DNA from: Thermosediminibacter litoriperuensis
GTDB lineage: Bacteria > Bacillota > Thermosediminibacteria > Thermosediminibacterales > Thermosediminibacteraceae
Assembly (NCBI RefSeq): GCF_008124715.1
Contig: NZ_VNHO01000017.1
Coordinates: 1-52,134, forward strand
Direction of reading: 5' to 3'
Length of the DNA stretch: 52,134 bases
The notes beneath the pieces were generated by a model. The model had not been told where the DNA came from. It saw only the letters and a program-made list of their open reading frames with translations, and searched no databases. Positions within the stretch are counted from its first letter, which is position 1; each line of letters begins with the position of its first letter. Shown piece after piece: positions 41,058 through 48,452 of this stretch. A program made the translations under genes and the position numbers.

Positions 41058-42401
41058 GTGAGGTTTTTTGATTCGTGGCGGTCTTTCTGGGTGCGGTTCA
41101 TTTTCGGCGCTCAGATGGCGTGGCACGGGGTTGCGGTCAATCCCCTCCGCTCCGGCCTCACTATGCTGGGAGTGGCCATTGGCGTTGCGTCGGTTATAAG
41201 CCTCATGGGTATAGGTGAGGGGGCGCGCCTGGCCGTGGTGCGGCAGTTTGAGAGCCTGGGTTCCAACGTAATCGTGATAAAGGCCCACGACGCGAAGGCC
41301 GAGTTTCAGCCCGAAGAGGCCCGGGAGCTGGTGGAGAGGGTTTCCGGGCTCAGATATGCGTCCCCGGTGACCCGGACTAATGCCGTCATGAAGTGGCGAA
41401 GGGCCAGGGGACAGGTGGATATACTGGGTGTGAGCAGCGATTTCCCCCAGCTTCGCGACCATAAACTCGTATCCGGCAGGTTTTTTACTCCTTGGCATGT
41501 GGAACAGCGGTCACCGGTAGCCGTGCTGGGCTACAACATAGGTGCGGGCCTGTTGGGTGGCAGAAGTCCCGTGGGGCAGACGGTCACGCTGAACGGGCAG
41601 ACCTTCAGGATCGTGGGTGTGCTGGAGAAAAAAGGCGAAGGTCAGGGGGAAGGCATAGACGATAAAATAATAATACCGTACACTACGGCCATGAAGATAG
41701 CTGGGAAAAGGACGGTCGACGAAATATGGGTTAAAGCCGAATCGGCAAAGGCGGCGGACCTTGCAATAGCCCAGCTGGGGCGAATTTACAGGAGAAAGCT
41801 GGGGCTTGACAACAAAGCCCCGGTTCCCACCGGCGGGGAGCAGAAGCAGGGAGAAACGCCCGGCGAAGGGCCCGGAACGGGAAAACCGGTGGAACCCAAG
41901 CCCGCTCCGGCCCCCGAAACCCCCGGGAAAGACAGCACGCCGGGCCTGGAACTTGGCAAGGACATAATTACAATTACCAATCTCAATACGCTGGTAGAAG
42001 AGGCCGATAAGGCCAACAGGGTCATGACACTGCTTTTAGGGGGAATAGCTGCGGTATCCCTGCTGGTAGGAGGCCTCGGCATAATGAACATAATGCTGGT
42101 GGCGGTAACCGAGAGGACCGGCGAGATAGGCGTGAGGAGAGCGCTGGGGGCCAAGCGCTCCGACCTTCTGATGCAGTTCCTGCTGGAGGCCCTTTACCTG
42201 AGCGGCATGGGAGCGGCGGCTGGCACCGCCGCGGGATTATGGGGCGTGGGCATATTCAACCGGTACGGACTCACCGCCGTCGTCAGCCTGGAGGCGGTGA
42301 AAGTCGCGGTGCTGGTGGCCCTGGGGTGCGGCCTGCTTTTCGGCGTGTATCCGGCGTGGACCGCCGCCTCGGTGCCGCCCGTGGAAGCCCTGCGACGATA
42401 A
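41058..42401 (+). CDS. MacB/FtsX-type ABC permease with Pro/Gly-rich insert
   Basis: A 447-residue permease: N-terminal helix ('RSGLTMLGVAIGVASVISLM'), MacB_PCD domain (about 50-250), then a low-complexity Pro/Gly/Glu insert at about 255-300 ('GETPGEGPGTGKPVEPKPAP') just before the FtsX helices ('AVSLLVGGLGIMNIMLVAV', 'RTGEIGVRRALGAKRSDLLM'). The insert is absent from the paralogue at 28524-29699. GTG at 41058 is six bases from AGGGGGG; an ATG at 41052 abuts the site. Last gene of the operon. Confidence 0.92.
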   Translation: MRFFDSWRSFWVRFIFGAQMAWHGVAVNPLRSGLTMLGVAIGVASVISLMGIGEGARLAVVRQFESLGSNVIVIKAHDAKAEFQPEEARELVERVSGLRYASPVTRTNAVMKWRRARGQVDILGVSSDFPQLRDHKLVSGRFFTPWHVEQRSPVAVLGYNIGAGLLGGRSPVGQTVTLNGQTFRIVGVLEKKGEGQGEGIDDKIIIPYTTAMKIAGKRTVDEIWVKAESAKAADLAIAQLGRIYRRKLGLDNKAPVPTGGEQKQGETPGEGPGTGKPVEPKPAPAPETPGKDSTPGLELGKDIITITNLNTLVEEADKANRVMTLLLGGIAAVSLLVGGLGIMNIMLVAVTERTGEIGVRRALGAKRSDLLMQFLLEALYLSGMGAAAGTAAGLWGVGIFNRYGLTAVVSLEAVKVAVLVALGCGLLFGVYPAWTAASVPPVEALRR

Positions 42402-42423
42402 AAAGAGCTCCTTTACGGAGCTT
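42401..42423 (-). terminator. Hairpin between ABC permease and nucleotidyltransferase fragment
   Basis: AGCTCC (42406-42411) pairs with GGAGCT (42417-42422). On the minus strand it is followed by CTTTTTA, so it mainly suits the truncated minus-strand gene; on the plus strand it sits four bases after the permease stop without a T-run. Confidence 0.5.
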
Positions 42424-42593
42424 ACCGCACCGGGTACCAGTATTATACCCAAATCTATGTCGCTGTCAGTCCTCATCTTATCAAGTGCAGAGCCAAAAAG
42501 ATATACCCCCGCAATTTCGGTGAATTGGCCGAGCTTTTCTGCTATAAAGACTTCCAACTTACCCCTGTCAATTTGAATCAGGTCCGATGGCAT
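42423..42593 (-). pseudogene. Truncated MNT-type nucleotidyltransferase (toxin/antitoxin fragment)
   Basis: A minus-strand ATG at 42593 with AAGGAAG upstream opens about 57 codons that match the start of minimal nucleotidyltransferases: 'FTEIAGVYLFGSALDKMRTD' with the GSxxxxxxxxDSDID active-site motif ('SDIDLGIILVP'). After residue 57 the frame runs into the terminator hairpin and the antisense of the ABC permease, so the C-terminal half has been lost. MNT proteins usually pair with HEPN toxins; no partner is left. Confidence 0.7.
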
Positions 42594-42714: not shown

Positions 42715-42801
42715 ATTGTGGGCGCTGCATAATTTTAACTCAGCAAAGAGCGGAGCATGCGCTGAGGGAAAAACATATAAATACAAAAAGGGGAAGATTT
42801 T

Positions 42802-44058
42802 ATGGCGCAGCTCTGGCTTTCGGGTATAATCTCATACTTCATCGGTAGTTTTTTCGTGATAAAGGACCGCCCAGTGGGCCATATTCTGGATTTTTCAAAA
42901 GGATATCTCACCATGTGGCTGGCTGGTATGTACCTCCCCTCCGGGGTTTCCTATCTTCTCGCCTCGGGTGGGGTGCTGATAGGCCACACCCGGCCGCTTT
43001 TTTATAAATTCAACGGGGATACTACGGAGGCCCTGGCGCTTGGAGTGATCACCTTCATGTCGCCGCCTTTCGGGCTTATCATACTGTTTTTCTTCCTGCT
43101 CCTAAAATTTCTCTTTAACGATTATGACAGTGCGGTTTTCGCCACTTCCTTTTTAATCCCTGTTTTAGCCTTAAAATTTTTCAGGAGCGATTCTTATATA
43201 ATAATATCGCTTCTAATATTCGGCAGCCTGGCCGTGCAGTTCTGGCCGCCTGCCTTTGAAAAACGGCTGAAACCTGCCATTTTTACCCGAGCGGCCTTCG
43301 CTTCCCTGCTGCTCTTTTTACTGTTGCTGTTTTATTTTAACAAATACGTATACAAGGGTTTCGGCGTGCAGAGGGATATAATCCGGCATGGACCGTGGCA
43401 GTTTAAATATGTGGCCATCACCTTCGACGACGGCCCGGACCCCGTATACACTCTCCAGATATTAGACATATTAAAAGAAAAGGGCGTCCCTGCCACCTTT
43501 TTTCTGATCGGAAAGAATGCGGAACAGTACCCCGAGATCGCCAGAAGAATAGTGAAGGAGGGGCATTCCATAGGCAACCACACCTATTCCCACCGGAGCC
43601 TCATACCGCTTTCTGCTAGGGCAACCCGGGAGGAGATAAAAAAAGCCGAAGAAGCCATAAAAAAGGCGACCGGCGTAAGGGCTACACTTTTCAGGCCGCC
43701 CAGGGGCGTCTATTCGGCCTACGCCAGGAAGTTTTTGAAGGAAGAGCGGTACACGATGGTGCTGTGGGACGTGTCCGCTATGGATTGGGCTGAGCTGCCG
43801 CCCAACAATATAGTTTCCTATGTGGTCAACCGGGTGAAGCCGGGGTCGATAATTCTGTTTCACGACAGCGGGGACCTGGTGACCTTTAAAGGCGGTGACA
43901 GGACGAGCACCGTCATGGCCCTTCCGGTTGTAATCGATGAGCTGAGGGCCCGGGGTTACGAATTCGTGACTGTGGACCAGATGATCTTTCTGGCGGAATT
44001 GATGAGGACGGAGGAGCAGGTTGATGAAAATAATAGCGGCGGAGATCAAACACATTGA
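42802..44058 (+). CDS. Fusion of PlsY-like membrane domain and NodB polysaccharide deacetylase
   Basis: A 418-residue membrane protein. Residues 1-190 have about six hydrophobic segments and follow the outline of PlsY glycerol-phosphate acyltransferase: 'ISYFIGSFFV', 'GHILDFSKGYLTMWLAG', 'GVLIGHTRPLFYKFNGDTTE' and a late 'LIFGSLAVQFWP'. The PlsY catalytic GSGNxGxTN and GGKG motifs are missing, so this half is probably not an acyltransferase. Residues about 205-400 are a complete NodB domain: 'VAITFDDGPDP', 'HSIGNHTYSHRSL', 'LFRPPRGVYS', 'IILFHDSGD'. It likely removes N-acetyl groups from wall glycan outside the membrane. AAAAGGGG precedes the ATG. It overlaps the GNAT gene by 35 bases. Confidence 0.85.
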   Translation: MAQLWLSGIISYFIGSFFVIKDRPVGHILDFSKGYLTMWLAGMYLPSGVSYLLASGGVLIGHTRPLFYKFNGDTTEALALGVITFMSPPFGLIILFFFLLLKFLFNDYDSAVFATSFLIPVLALKFFRSDSYIIISLLIFGSLAVQFWPPAFEKRLKPAIFTRAAFASLLLFLLLLFYFNKYVYKGFGVQRDIIRHGPWQFKYVAITFDDGPDPVYTLQILDILKEKGVPATFFLIGKNAEQYPEIARRIVKEGHSIGNHTYSHRSLIPLSARATREEIKKAEEAIKKATGVRATLFRPPRGVYSAYARKFLKEERYTMVLWDVSAMDWAELPPNNIVSYVVNRVKPGSIILFHDSGDLVTFKGGDRTSTVMALPVVIDELRARGYEFVTVDQMIFLAELMRTEEQVDENNSGGDQTH

Positions 44059-44635
44059 GGCCGTGGTGGACATATTCTGCGCGGCGTTCAGCAGGAGCAT
44101 AATGTTTTTCACGCCTTTGAACTCTGCCGTTAAAAGGGCGTTTCGCGACTTTTTTATGCTTCTGCGGGATACCTTCAACGGTGGGTTCATGGTGGCCGTC
44201 GACGGCAACGAGGTCTGCGGCTATATAGTTATGGCCGACGACATAAAAAGGCTCTGGCTGAGGGCAATCTTTTCCGGATTTCTCTTCAAGATATTCTTAA
44301 AGGCCATCGGCGGGATATACGGTGTGGGTTTATCGACGATATACAGAGTGGTGAAGAATAAGCTGTGTTACATGAAGTTCGAGGTCACTACCAGGCCCTC
44401 CGCCCAGCTGCTCTCCATAGCCGTCGCCCCCGAGCACCACGGCCGGGGGATTGGGAAAAAGCTGCTGGAGGCGGGTTTAAAATACATGGCTTCTCTTGGT
44501 GTCAGGAGGGTCAAGCTGGAGGTAAGGCCCGACAACGCTCCGGCCGTGAGGATCTACGAAAAGTACGGCTTCAAACCGGCCGGAAAAACCAGGGACCTTC
44601 AGGGAGATTGGCTGATAATGGTAAAGGAGCTATAA
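44024..44635 (+). CDS. GNAT-family N-acetyltransferase
   Basis: A 203-residue protein with a C-terminal GNAT core: 'LLSIAVAPEHHGRGIGKKLL' carries the acetyl-CoA pyrophosphate-binding R/Q-x-x-G-x-G/A loop (HGRGIG), and 'VRPDNAPAVRIYEKYGFKPA' is motif B. Residues about 75-105 are hydrophobic ('LWLRAIFSGFLFKIFLKAIG'), as in a subset of GNATs. ATG at 44024 with AGGAG at 44012-44016; a TTG precedes it directly. It is translationally coupled to the deacetylase by a 35-base overlap; an acetylated wall or lipid substrate is a guess. Confidence 0.88.
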   Translation: MKIIAAEIKHIEAVVDIFCAAFSRSIMFFTPLNSAVKRAFRDFFMLLRDTFNGGFMVAVDGNEVCGYIVMADDIKRLWLRAIFSGFLFKIFLKAIGGIYGVGLSTIYRVVKNKLCYMKFEVTTRPSAQLLSIAVAPEHHGRGIGKKLLEAGLKYMASLGVRRVKLEVRPDNAPAVRIYEKYGFKPAGKTRDLQGDWLIMVKEL

Positions 44636-44645
44636 AAGGGTTAAT

Positions 44646-45230
44646 CTATAATTTTTCTATTAATTTCTTGCTTTTATCGATAACGGAAGTTAATATATCT
44701 GCAACCTGGTTTTTATGAGCTTCTTCTTTTAAATAATCAAAATCAATCTTTTTAAAGTGCAATGCCATAATTTTTATCGCCCACTCTTCATCATCGGTGC
44801 TATGCCAAAATTTTGCCGCCAATAACCTGTCAATTATCAAATCTTCGATACCGATTATATAAGCTTCCATATTATCTACTTCGACTGTGATAACTTTTTC
44901 TGTTGATCCTGCAAGGTATTCATCGGGAACTTCAATAGCCAGATCGATCTCTTCATTGTACCAATGCCTTTCTCCTGTCCTTCTGGTAAATCCCAGCTTT
45001 TCAAATACTTCTTTTGCGTGCTCTCTCCCTCTTATTACTAGATCGATATCTTTTGTCGCATAACCTCCAAGAGTATAAAATTCTAGTGCCCTGCCACCAA
45101 CAAGGATAGGCTTGATATTTTTGGTTTTCAGGGCCTCAGTTATAATTGCCGTAATTTTTAATGCTTTTTTCAAACTGTTGTGTTCATCTGCAATAGACTT
45201 TAAGTGCTGCTTCAAAAGTTTTTCATCCAA
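44646..45230 (-). CDS. Nucleotidyltransferase-fold protein (AbiEii/DUF6036-like), probable toxin
   Basis: A 194-residue protein with a nucleotidyltransferase core: 'KPILVGGRALEFYTLGGYAT' gives the GG/GS helix and 'KDIDLVIRG' the paired catalytic Asp, with a third Asp/Glu in 'EEIDLAIEVP'. 'YIIGIEDLIIDRLLAAKFWH' is the helical part typical of AbiEii-like and DUF6036 proteins. Its start overlaps the preceding small gene by 19 bases, the layout of a toxin-antitoxin operon. Base composition is more AT-rich than in surrounding genes, suggesting transfer. Confidence 0.75.
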   Translation of the reverse strand: MDEKLLKQHLKSIADEHNSLKKALKITAIITEALKTKNIKPILVGGRALEFYTLGGYATKDIDLVIRGREHAKEVFEKLGFTRRTGERHWYNEEIDLAIEVPDEYLAGSTEKVITVEVDNMEAYIIGIEDLIIDRLLAAKFWHSTDDEEWAIKIMALHFKKIDFDYLKEEAHKNQVADILTSVIDKSKKLIEKL

Positions 45231-45457
45231 TCTAATCTGTACCTCCTCGGGGCGATTTCGCTAATGGCACCGGTCTCTAACGCCCTCTGCCATCTTTTAT
45301 AATCGAGTAGAAAAAGGACGAAGGTTTCCTCGGGATCGCGGGGTTTTCGCTTAACTTTTTTCCCGCGGGTCCGTTCGGATTCCATCAGGCTGTATATTTT
45401 AAAAGAATCTTTTTGTAATTGTTTTATATAGTCTTCGAAGATTATTTTTTCACTCAT
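45212..45457 (-). CDS. Small basic protein, putative antitoxin partner
   Basis: An 81-residue protein of no recognised family. It is highly charged, with 'SERTRGKKVKRKPRDPEETF' in the middle and an aromatic C-terminus ('YKRWQRALETGAISEIAPRR'). It precedes and overlaps the nucleotidyltransferase gene, so partnership is inferred from position. A TATAAT-like -10 (minus strand, 45483-45488) lies 25 bases upstream of the ATG, indicating its own promoter. Confidence 0.6.
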   Translation of the reverse strand: MSEKIIFEDYIKQLQKDSFKIYSLMESERTRGKKVKRKPRDPEETFVLFLLDYKRWQRALETGAISEIAPRRYRLDWMKNF

Positions 45458-45537: not shown

Positions 45538-45996
45538 ATGTTTCATGAAAGGTTTGTGAGGCAAGTGTCGAATAAAGTTCTGCCTAAAAGCGGCCGTGAA
45601 GCGGGCCTCGCCCTTATTACGGTTGTATTTGCAGTCGCAGTGCTGCTCCTGCTGGGCGTTGCCATTCTGGACATGATGACCGCCGAACTCAAAAAAACCG
45701 CGTATTTCAGGGATAGCGCGATAGCATATTACCTGGCGGAAGCGGGAATCCAGAAAACCCTCGCCGCCTTGAAAAAAGACCCGGATCACAGGCCCAAAGG
45801 AGCCGGAGACCTGGGAGACGGGTCTTTTGAGGTATCGGTGGAAGAGGTAAACCCCGGCAGGCTGGAGATAACGTCACAGGGTGCGGCGGGCCGGGCAAGG
45901 GAAAAGCTTTCGGTGACCGTGGAAGTCTTAACCGGCGAAGAGGGGACGTATATAAAGGTAATTTCCTGGGGTCAGGAAGGCAAAGAGGACCTTTAA
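45538..45996 (+). CDS. PilX-like pseudopilin, alone
   Basis: A 152-residue protein with a type IV prepilin-like leader: 'SGREAGLALITVVFAVAVLL' has a Gly before a hydrophobic helix, as for prepilin peptidase cleavage after 'REAG', though the usual Glu at +5 is not present. 'FRDSAIAYYLAEAGIQKTLA' is the standard PilX/minor-pilin continuation of the helix. A beta-rich C-terminus follows. No other pilus genes are near. The start is unclear: ATG 45538 has no ribosome site, GTG 45556 or 45565 are alternatives. The end overlaps the convergent MFS gene by 4 bases. Confidence 0.75.
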   Translation: MFHERFVRQVSNKVLPKSGREAGLALITVVFAVAVLLLLGVAILDMMTAELKKTAYFRDSAIAYYLAEAGIQKTLAALKKDPDHRPKGAGDLGDGSFEVSVEEVNPGRLEITSQGAAGRAREKLSVTVEVLTGEEGTYIKVISWGQEGKEDL

Positions 45997-47383: not shown

Positions 47384-47400
47384 TGAATTGCCATCGGACG

Positions 47401-47487
47401 GAGGGGTGTCCGAGTGGTTTAAGGAGCTGGTCTTGAAAACCAGTGCCCCAAAAGGGCCGGGGGTTCGAATCCCTCCCCCTCTGCCAG
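47401..47487 (+). tRNA. tRNA-Ser (anticodon TGA)
   Basis: Acceptor GGAGGGG pairs with CCCCTCT; anticodon stem-loop CTGGT-CTTGAAA-ACCAG gives TGA; long class II variable arm; TTCGAAT T-loop; CCA encoded at 47485-47487. Confidence 0.95.
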
Positions 47488-47497
47488 AATTCCCGGG

Positions 47498-47592
47498 GAG
47501 AGATGGCCGAGAAGGTCGAAGGCGGTCGCCTGCTAAGCGACTATACGGACCTAAAATCCGTATCGCGGGTTCGAATCCCGCTCTCTCCGCCA
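47498..47592 (+). tRNA. tRNA-Ser (anticodon GCT)
   Basis: Acceptor GGAGAGA / TCTCTCC; anticodon stem-loop GTCGC-CTGCTAA-GCGAC gives GCT, reading AGC/AGU; long variable arm; CCA encoded. Confidence 0.95.
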
Positions 47593-47597
47593 TACGT

Positions 47598-47674
<77 letters not shown>

Positions 47675-47688
47675 GAGACTTATCATAT

Positions 47689-47765
47689 GCGCCCGTAGCT
47701 CAGGAGGAAAGAGCAGCGGTTTCCTAAACCGCGTGCCGGGGGTTCGAGTCCTCCCGGGCGCACCA
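47689..47765 (+). tRNA. tRNA-Arg (anticodon CCT)
   Basis: Acceptor GCGCCCG / CGGGCGC; anticodon stem-loop GCGGT-TTCCTAA-ACCGC gives CCT, reading AGG; CCA encoded. Confidence 0.95.
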
Positions 47766-47789
47766 TTCTTTTTAAAAGGGATTAAAATA

Positions 47790-48248
47790 ATGCAGGAAAA
47801 AGACCACGAATACTTCATGCGCGAAGCCCTGAAGGAAGCACGGAAGGCCTTTGAGGAAGACGAAGTGCCCATCGGGGCGGTAATCGCGTACGATGGCCGC
47901 ATAATTGCCCGGGCCCATAACCTCAGAGAGGGAAGCCGGGACGCCACCGCTCACGCGGAGGTACTGGCGATAAGGGCCGCGTGCGATGCCATGGGCACCT
48001 GGAGGCTCACGGGATGCAGCCTTTACGTTACGCTGGAGCCGTGCCCCATGTGCGCCGGGGCCATTATCCTGGCCAGGCTCGATAGGGTGGTGTTCGGCGC
48101 GCAGGACCCGAAAGCCGGGGCTGCGGGCAGTGTGGTGGACCTTTTCAGCGTCGAAAGATTCAACCACCACCCGGAAGTAGTTTCCGGTGTGCTGGCCGAA
48201 GAATGCGGCATTTTGCTGAAGGAGTTTTTCAGGCAAAAAAGATCATAA
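47790..48248 (+). CDS. tadA: tRNA-specific adenosine deaminase
   Basis: Deaminates A34 of tRNA-Arg(ACG) to inosine so that one tRNA reads CGU, CGC and CGA. The 152-residue zinc enzyme has the catalytic 'TAHAEVLAIRAACDAMGTWR' (HAE) and the metal site 'TLEPCPMCAGAIILARLDRV' (PCxxC). Start ATG at 47790 behind AAAAGGG; the frame is open far upstream through the tRNA genes, but that part is not coding. It lies between tRNA genes and may be read from the tRNA promoter. Confidence 0.96.
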   Translation: MQEKDHEYFMREALKEARKAFEEDEVPIGAVIAYDGRIIARAHNLREGSRDATAHAEVLAIRAACDAMGTWRLTGCSLYVTLEPCPMCAGAIILARLDRVVFGAQDPKAGAAGSVVDLFSVERFNHHPEVVSGVLAEECGILLKEFFRQKRS

Positions 48249-48254
48249 CTTGGT

Positions 48255-48345
48255 GGAGAGATGGCCGAGAGGTCGAAGGCGCTCGCCTCGAAAGCGAGTA
48301 GGCGGTAATCCCGCCTCGTGAGTTCGAATCTCACTCTCTCCGCCA
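48255..48345 (+). tRNA. tRNA-Ser (anticodon CGA)
   Basis: Acceptor GGAGAGA / TCTCTCC; anticodon stem-loop CTCGC-CTCGAAA-GCGAG gives CGA; long variable arm; CCA encoded. Confidence 0.95.
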
Positions 48346-48357
48346 GAAAAAAAGCGT

Positions 48358-48452
48358 GGAGAGATGGCTGAGTGGTCGAAGGCGCTCGACTGGAAATCGA
48401 GTAGACGGGGAAAATCCTCGTCTCGCGGGTTCGAATCCCGCTCTCTCCGCCA
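48358..48452 (+). tRNA. tRNA-Ser (anticodon GGA)
   Basis: Acceptor GGAGAGA / TCTCTCC; anticodon stem-loop CTCGA-CTGGAAA-TCGAG gives GGA; long variable arm; CCA encoded. With TGA, GCT and CGA this completes the four serine isoacceptors. Confidence 0.95.

Follow-up and report, generated by a model that had tools for sequence, protein, structure and literature searches.

The gene at positions 42802–44058 of the window (the whole stretch of Thermosediminibacter litoriperuensis DNA that was analyzed, 52,134 nucleotides) encodes a protein that, on the basis of sequence comparisons and structure models, is probably a membrane-anchored extracytoplasmic CE4 de-N-acetylase, with a degenerate and catalytically dead copy of the acyltransferase PlsY as its anchor. 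At least 15 families of Bacillota, mostly spore-forming, have this fusion. It is apparently undescribed: a search of the open-access literature, with subscription journals outside its scope, found neither 'PlsY' together with 'polysaccharide deacetylase', nor the two Pfam names together, nor 'PlsY' with 'pseudoenzyme', in agreement with the original prediction, which had not known the architecture as a described one. The family would clearly exemplify a PlsY acyltransferase that became a pseudoenzyme and is kept under purifying selection in at least 15 Bacillota families, and with the fusion, a hairpin-form clade and a GNAT gene it offers a compact and testable system for the contribution of a dead lipid enzyme to wall modification. 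The features are as follows.

42750–42763 (+): upstream element GCGGAGCATGCGCT (alignment of six related loci)
42802–44058 (+): fusion gene, PlsY-like membrane domain, TM8, linker and CE4 deacetylase, 418 aa (ORF; homologous fusions in 25 genomes and one contig-edge fragment)
42802–43257 (+): PlsY-like domain, a predicted pseudo-acyltransferase, residues 1–152 (PF02660, hhalign, Foldseek); seven predicted helices at residues 2–17, 23–44, 48–67, 75–86, 88–105, 108–126 and 130–146
43189–43191 (+): Asp130, at the outer end of TM7, invariant in 22 of 22 aligned N-domains
43273–43356 (+): additional helix TM8, residues 158–185 (AlphaFold2 models; loop charge counts)
43336–43395 (+): juxtamembrane signature FNKYVYKGFGVQRDIIRHGP, residues 179–198 (conservation in fusions and short forms)
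43402–43986 (+): CE4/NodB deacetylase domain, residues 201–395, motif 3 RPPRG (PF01522, motif check in 21 fusions, Foldseek CE4 matches)
44010–44016 (+): Shine-Dalgarno-like GGAGGAG of the GNAT gene, within the 3' end of the fusion (sequence)
44024–44635 (+): GNAT-family acetyltransferase whose two GNAT halves are separated by an insert (PF00583, alignment, co-occurrence)

Distribution of the fusion

The fusion is present in 14 of the 22 genomes of the order, in one of which (G020) the contig ends within the CE4 domain; in G016, a piece of the fusion N-domain lies at a contig edge, and named relatives in the order are Fervidicola ferrireducens, Thermovorax subterraneus and Tepidanaerobacter. 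A sample of 398 genomes of the phylum contained 25 full fusions, with scores of 159–263 bits, and one fragment at a contig edge, distributed over 15 families; the best canonical PlsY scored 91 bits. A local oddity of one genus is ruled out by these 15 families, an assembly or frameshift artifact by the 25 full-length copies in separate genomes, and a fixed operon with the efflux/ABC genes of the window by other lineages in which the neighbors differ.

The PlsY-like domain

In Pfam, PF02660 matched residues 28–143 with 36–38 bits (gathering score 24.1), and the PlsY equivalog model TIGR00023 gave 37–39.7 bits, far below its cut-off of 137.2, which at the sequence level is as expected of a degenerate homologue. 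When the N-domain sequence was searched against the PDB, the only chain type found was that of the crystallized PlsY (E 0.003), and a profile alignment of 22 fusion N-domains with 16 canonical PlsYs by hhalign (99.7%, E 3.7e-26) extended from helix 1 through the end of TM7; PF02660 was matched by 17 of the 22 family N-domains. AlphaFold2 predicted seven helices and an eighth at residues 158–187, in models that were built with 10 related sequences and have a mean pLDDT of 70–72, with low confidence for the linker and TM8. Foldseek placed five PlsY chains (5xj5–5xj8) on top for the N-domain model, with prob 1.00 and TM 0.60–0.66, and as the sixth match had a prob of 0.11, the PlsY crystal structures were the only confident matches. 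The original prediction of a PlsY-type N-terminal domain, which was to be given up if no PlsY profile matched and the predicted fold was unlike PlsY, thus held on both counts. It had extended the PlsY-like stretch over the N-terminal 190 residues; the PlsY-like character stands, and its extent is reduced to residues 1–152, since residues 158–185 form an extra eighth helix without a PlsY counterpart.

With PlsY (PF02660, TIGR00023; 5XJ5–5XJ9), the N-domain shares the seven-helix fold, the helix order and a surviving framework that comprises the SYxIGS start, DxxKG (DFxKG in the fusion protein), GHxxP and an SP after TM4. It differs by the loss of the catalytic motifs, the gain of the eighth helix and of Asp130, and the fused deacetylase. 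The glycerol-3-phosphate (G3P) pocket of the Aquifex PlsY consists of Ser35, Arg45, Lys104, Ser142, His177 and Asn180 (PMC5700162), and in the alignment with canonical PlsYs none of these six residues is kept: motif 1 (GSGNxGxTN) is deleted outright, GGKG reads NGDT, which changes Lys104 to Thr, the HRxN motif is lost with His177 changed to Trp and Asn180 to Ala, and Ser142 is replaced by Val or Phe, depending on the alignment used. The earlier reading of a PlsY fold that lacks GSGNxGxTN and GGKG is thereby confirmed, an active second PlsY is ruled out by the lost pocket residues, and, as judged from its sequence, the N-domain is a PlsY that has turned into a catalytically dead pseudoenzyme. 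G3P acylation is covered in this genome, because a separate intact PlsY is encoded elsewhere (G000:C2:104239, 175.7 bits). Less degenerate members exist at a distance: in L057, positions 2–155 of PF02660 are matched and GGTG stands in place of GGKG, and L055 reaches 64.8 bits with PF02660 and 81.7 bits with TIGR00023. Against a same-genus relative, the PlsY-like part has a dN/dS of 0.17 and the CE4 part one of 0.065; the former is under purifying selection, and thus maintained, but less constrained than the CE4 enzyme. Automatic annotation may mislabel the fusion proteins as glycerol-3-phosphate acyltransferases.

PlsY has an N-out, C-in topology, and an eighth helix behind a seven-helix PlsY would therefore bring the CE4 domain outside. 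In the models, it is TM8 that would turn the C-terminus outward, giving a predicted extracytoplasmic CE4 domain, and lysine and arginine residues in the loops of 22 N-domains are distributed accordingly, with 250 predicted inside and 47 predicted outside. The seven helices of PlsY have been described together with functional loops that are cytoplasmic (PMC5700162). Asp130, whose position is occupied by different residues in the aligned canonical PlsYs, adjoins at the outer face the linker between TM8 and the CE4 domain, which reads YVYKGFGxQ in the fusion and YVY[KR]GFxxQ across the family. The cytosolic catalytic motifs are thus lost, and conservation, with the invariant Asp130 and linker, sits on the outer face, which may serve as a docking site.

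The deacetylase domain

PF01522 matched residues 201–320 with 136.6 bits, and all CE4 motifs are present, so that the intact wall deacetylase domain of the original prediction is upheld as a prediction from sequence. The five motifs (TFDD, H(S/T)xxH, RxP.G, DW and LxHD) are intact in all of the 21 fusions examined, with motif 2 reading NHTYNH in L064, and with the full-length model Foldseek found many CE4 structures at prob 1.00, which identifies the NodB fold. Motif 3 is RPPRG, with an arginine in place of the aromatic residue, in all 34 members, fusions and short forms alike; the other CE4 proteins encoded in these genomes mostly have RxP[YF]G, and one exception, in L096, has RPPRG. In characterized enzymes, an aromatic residue in motif 3 goes with activity on COS and an arginine with MurNAc deacetylases, for which two more traits are listed: motif 1 lacks a metal Asp, and motif 4 has an Ala (PMC5855634). 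Both of these further traits are absent from the family, in which TFDD is intact and motif 4 has Ser or Thr.

The CE4 domain scored best with PdaB- and PgdA-type models, always below the cut-off. With PgdA, BC1960 and PdaC, it shares the five catalytic motifs, and structural alignments of the model show 36–41% identity; the differences are the PlsY-derived polytopic anchor, the YVYKGFGxQ linker, and RPPRG instead of RxPY. The MurNAc deacetylase PdaA (TIGR02884) has the arginine in motif 3 in common with the fusion, which is distinguished by its intact TFDD, by Ser or Thr rather than Ala in motif 4 and by the polytopic anchor, and which scored 137.8–139.3 bits with the PdaA model, for which the cut-off is 298. 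The best NCBIfam score was obtained with PdaB (TIGR02764), at 189 bits and a cut-off of 237.4; a PdaB orthologue is ruled out by this sub-threshold score together with a separate PdaB-like gene in the same genome (at C7, 231 bits). With the muramic-δ-lactam cyclase SwsB/YlxY (TIGR02873), the fusion shares the CE4 fold and a sporulation context, but the base Asp that is kept in the fusion is Asn in SwsB, and a separate SwsB-like gene lies at C12. In G037, a 480-aa protein (L092:571–2010, − strand) contains tandem CE4 domains, one PdaB-like (RPPFG) and one SwsB-like (NVAWG, APPYG).

Short forms and the GNAT partner

In families f12, f30, f50, f53 and f59, we found CE4 proteins of 264–339 aa with one or two helices only, which have the same linker as the fusion (FYVYxGFxxQPDIYRxG) and usually an adjoining GNAT gene. 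The short forms are one clade in the CE4 tree (100/100), and fusions and short forms together stand apart from other CE4 proteins with a support of only 88/94; monophyly of the fusions was not rejected (p-AU 0.47), and PlsY may have been either gained by the fusions or lost in the hairpin clade. As a two-helix hairpin replaces the PlsY bundle while linker, CE4 domain and GNAT are constant, the PlsY part most likely acts as a membrane anchor or scaffold. The original prediction had offered a membrane sensor or a lipid-binding anchor for wall modification, and of these the anchor role as such, apart from any lipid binding, is the best reading, given a sister clade that keeps linker, deacetylase and GNAT with a hairpin.

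The GNAT gene, which matched PF00583 with 70.2 bits (gathering score 20.7), likely starts at ATG 44024, behind the GGAGGAG at 44010, and overlaps the fusion by 35 bases, counted to the end of the fusion stop codon, as had been proposed. Its inserted segment (around RLWLRAIFSGFLFKIFLKAIGGIYG...NKL) is rich in hydrophobic and basic residues and is common to the GNATs that adjoin distant fusions. GNATs of this kind, counted with 179 bits as the minimum score, were found in 18 of 26 fusion carriers versus 13 of 372 other genomes (Fisher p 4e-17, kinship ignored), and lie beside the fusion in 17 of the 18 positive carriers, the copy of G163 being on another contig. G003 and G004 have no GNAT, and in three genomes with an intact fusion the gene contains an in-frame TAG or TAA (G006:C33:108576–109091, G010:C17:352–960 and G011:C1:2445881–2446489). 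Since it can be absent or interrupted, the GNAT is not strictly required.

Proposed function and alternatives

In the mechanism that we propose, the PlsY-derived bundle would serve as a scaffold and keep the deacetylase on the outer side of the membrane via the YVYKGFGxQ linker, possibly with docking at Asp130, and the CE4 domain would remove acetyl groups from membrane-proximal peptidoglycan, with MurNAc as the more likely sugar because of the motif-3 arginine. The invariant Asp130 exceeds the need of a bare anchor.

A more specific reading, which we hold to be rather unlikely, is that the fusion replaces PdaA as the MurNAc deacetylase of spore-cortex muramic-δ-lactam synthesis, acting after the amidase CwlD and before an SwsB-type cyclase. 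SwsB is a lactam cyclase without deacetylation activity (PMC12444981), and a deacetylase is therefore needed if the muramic-lactam pathway operates. The genome of the fusion encodes a CwlD-like protein (184.8 bits, under the cut-off of 221.55) and an SwsB/YlxY-like CE4 protein with the base Asp changed to Asn (TCNVAWG), but no PdaA over the cut-off, and ten further CE4 proteins from seven carriers are all below the PdaA cut-off, although curated cut-offs may miss a divergent PdaA or CwlD and the CE4 sets of several carriers are partly classified. The motif-3 arginine is present in all members, but motifs 1 and 4 are unlike those of PdaA. SpoIVA was found in 26 of 26 fusion carriers, yet also in 334 of the 398 sampled genomes, which makes this a weak co-occurrence (p 0.013, kinship ignored), and the two gene orders that place the fusion next to spoIVA, der-plsY-gpsA-spoIVA-fusion-GNAT in G253 and gpsA-spoIVA-fusion in G322, come from two lineages only; here der, gpsA and spoIVA, though not plsY, are what we take these genes to be from the starts of their ORFs. 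The fusion is thus a possible MurNAc deacetylase of muramic-lactam synthesis, and a candidate for this step where no PdaA passes the curated cut-off. The gene order in G253 and G322 suggests a route for the capture of a plsY copy, and a doubtful extension of the PdaA replacement would be that PlsY was duplicated, possibly in the plsY-gpsA-spoIVA neighborhood, lost its catalysis and became the membrane platform of a deacetylase family that has a dedicated GNAT partner and replaces PdaA in many Bacillota.

Many members still have the hydrophobic bundle and parts of the conserved framework (DxxKG, GHxxP), and on the outer face neither Asp130 nor the linker varies, as could be expected of a lipid sensor or lipid-regulated deacetylase whose CE4 domain is controlled by a PlsY-like pocket that has kept the ability to bind an acyl or phospholipid ligand. 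We consider such regulation quite improbable, as motif 2 (GGKG) is lost in the aligned members, with only a partial GGTG in L057, several lineages have lost the GH of motif 2, and the sister clade has no PlsY domain at all. Highly unlikely in our view is a substrate other than a polymer, namely a lipid-linked amino sugar of the undecaprenyl or glycolipid type on which the GNAT acts from the cytosolic side: the anchoring at the bilayer surface and the conserved GNAT partner with its hydrophobic and basic insert would fit, but neighborhoods vary by lineage and include no glycosyltransferase or lipid-carrier gene as a conserved neighbor of the fusion, and the GNAT is missing (G003, G004) or interrupted by a stop (G006, G010, G011). 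Our preferred reading is the scaffold-held deacetylase acting on peptidoglycan.

Genomic surroundings

The element GCGGAGCATGCGCT lies ~40 bases ahead of the fusion start codon and is conserved in six related loci despite differing upstream genes. A scan for sigma-70-type promoters gave 4 matches with 2.7 expected, and no convincing sporulation-sigma match was found by eye. Between the macB-like gene and the fusion, 42237–42593 (−) encodes what looks like a truncated remnant, the N-terminal part of a Pol-beta-type nucleotidyltransferase (PF18765 at residues 16–52 only, 28.3 bits), whose reading frame runs antisense into the ABC permease gene. Downstream, a DUF6036-type nucleotidyltransferase (44646–45457, −; 28.4 bits) overlaps a small ORF (81 aa, no family) upstream of it, and the two could be a toxin-antitoxin or abortive-infection-like pair. 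The gene at 45538–45996 (+) encodes a PilX_N-like pilin-type protein (23.9 bits, just under the cut-off), and in G004, which lacks the GNAT, a similar ORF lies directly 3' of the fusion. At 47400–48452 (+), six tRNA genes (four Ser, two Arg) flank a deaminase-like ORF, and the six-frame ORFs across these tRNAs are probably spurious.
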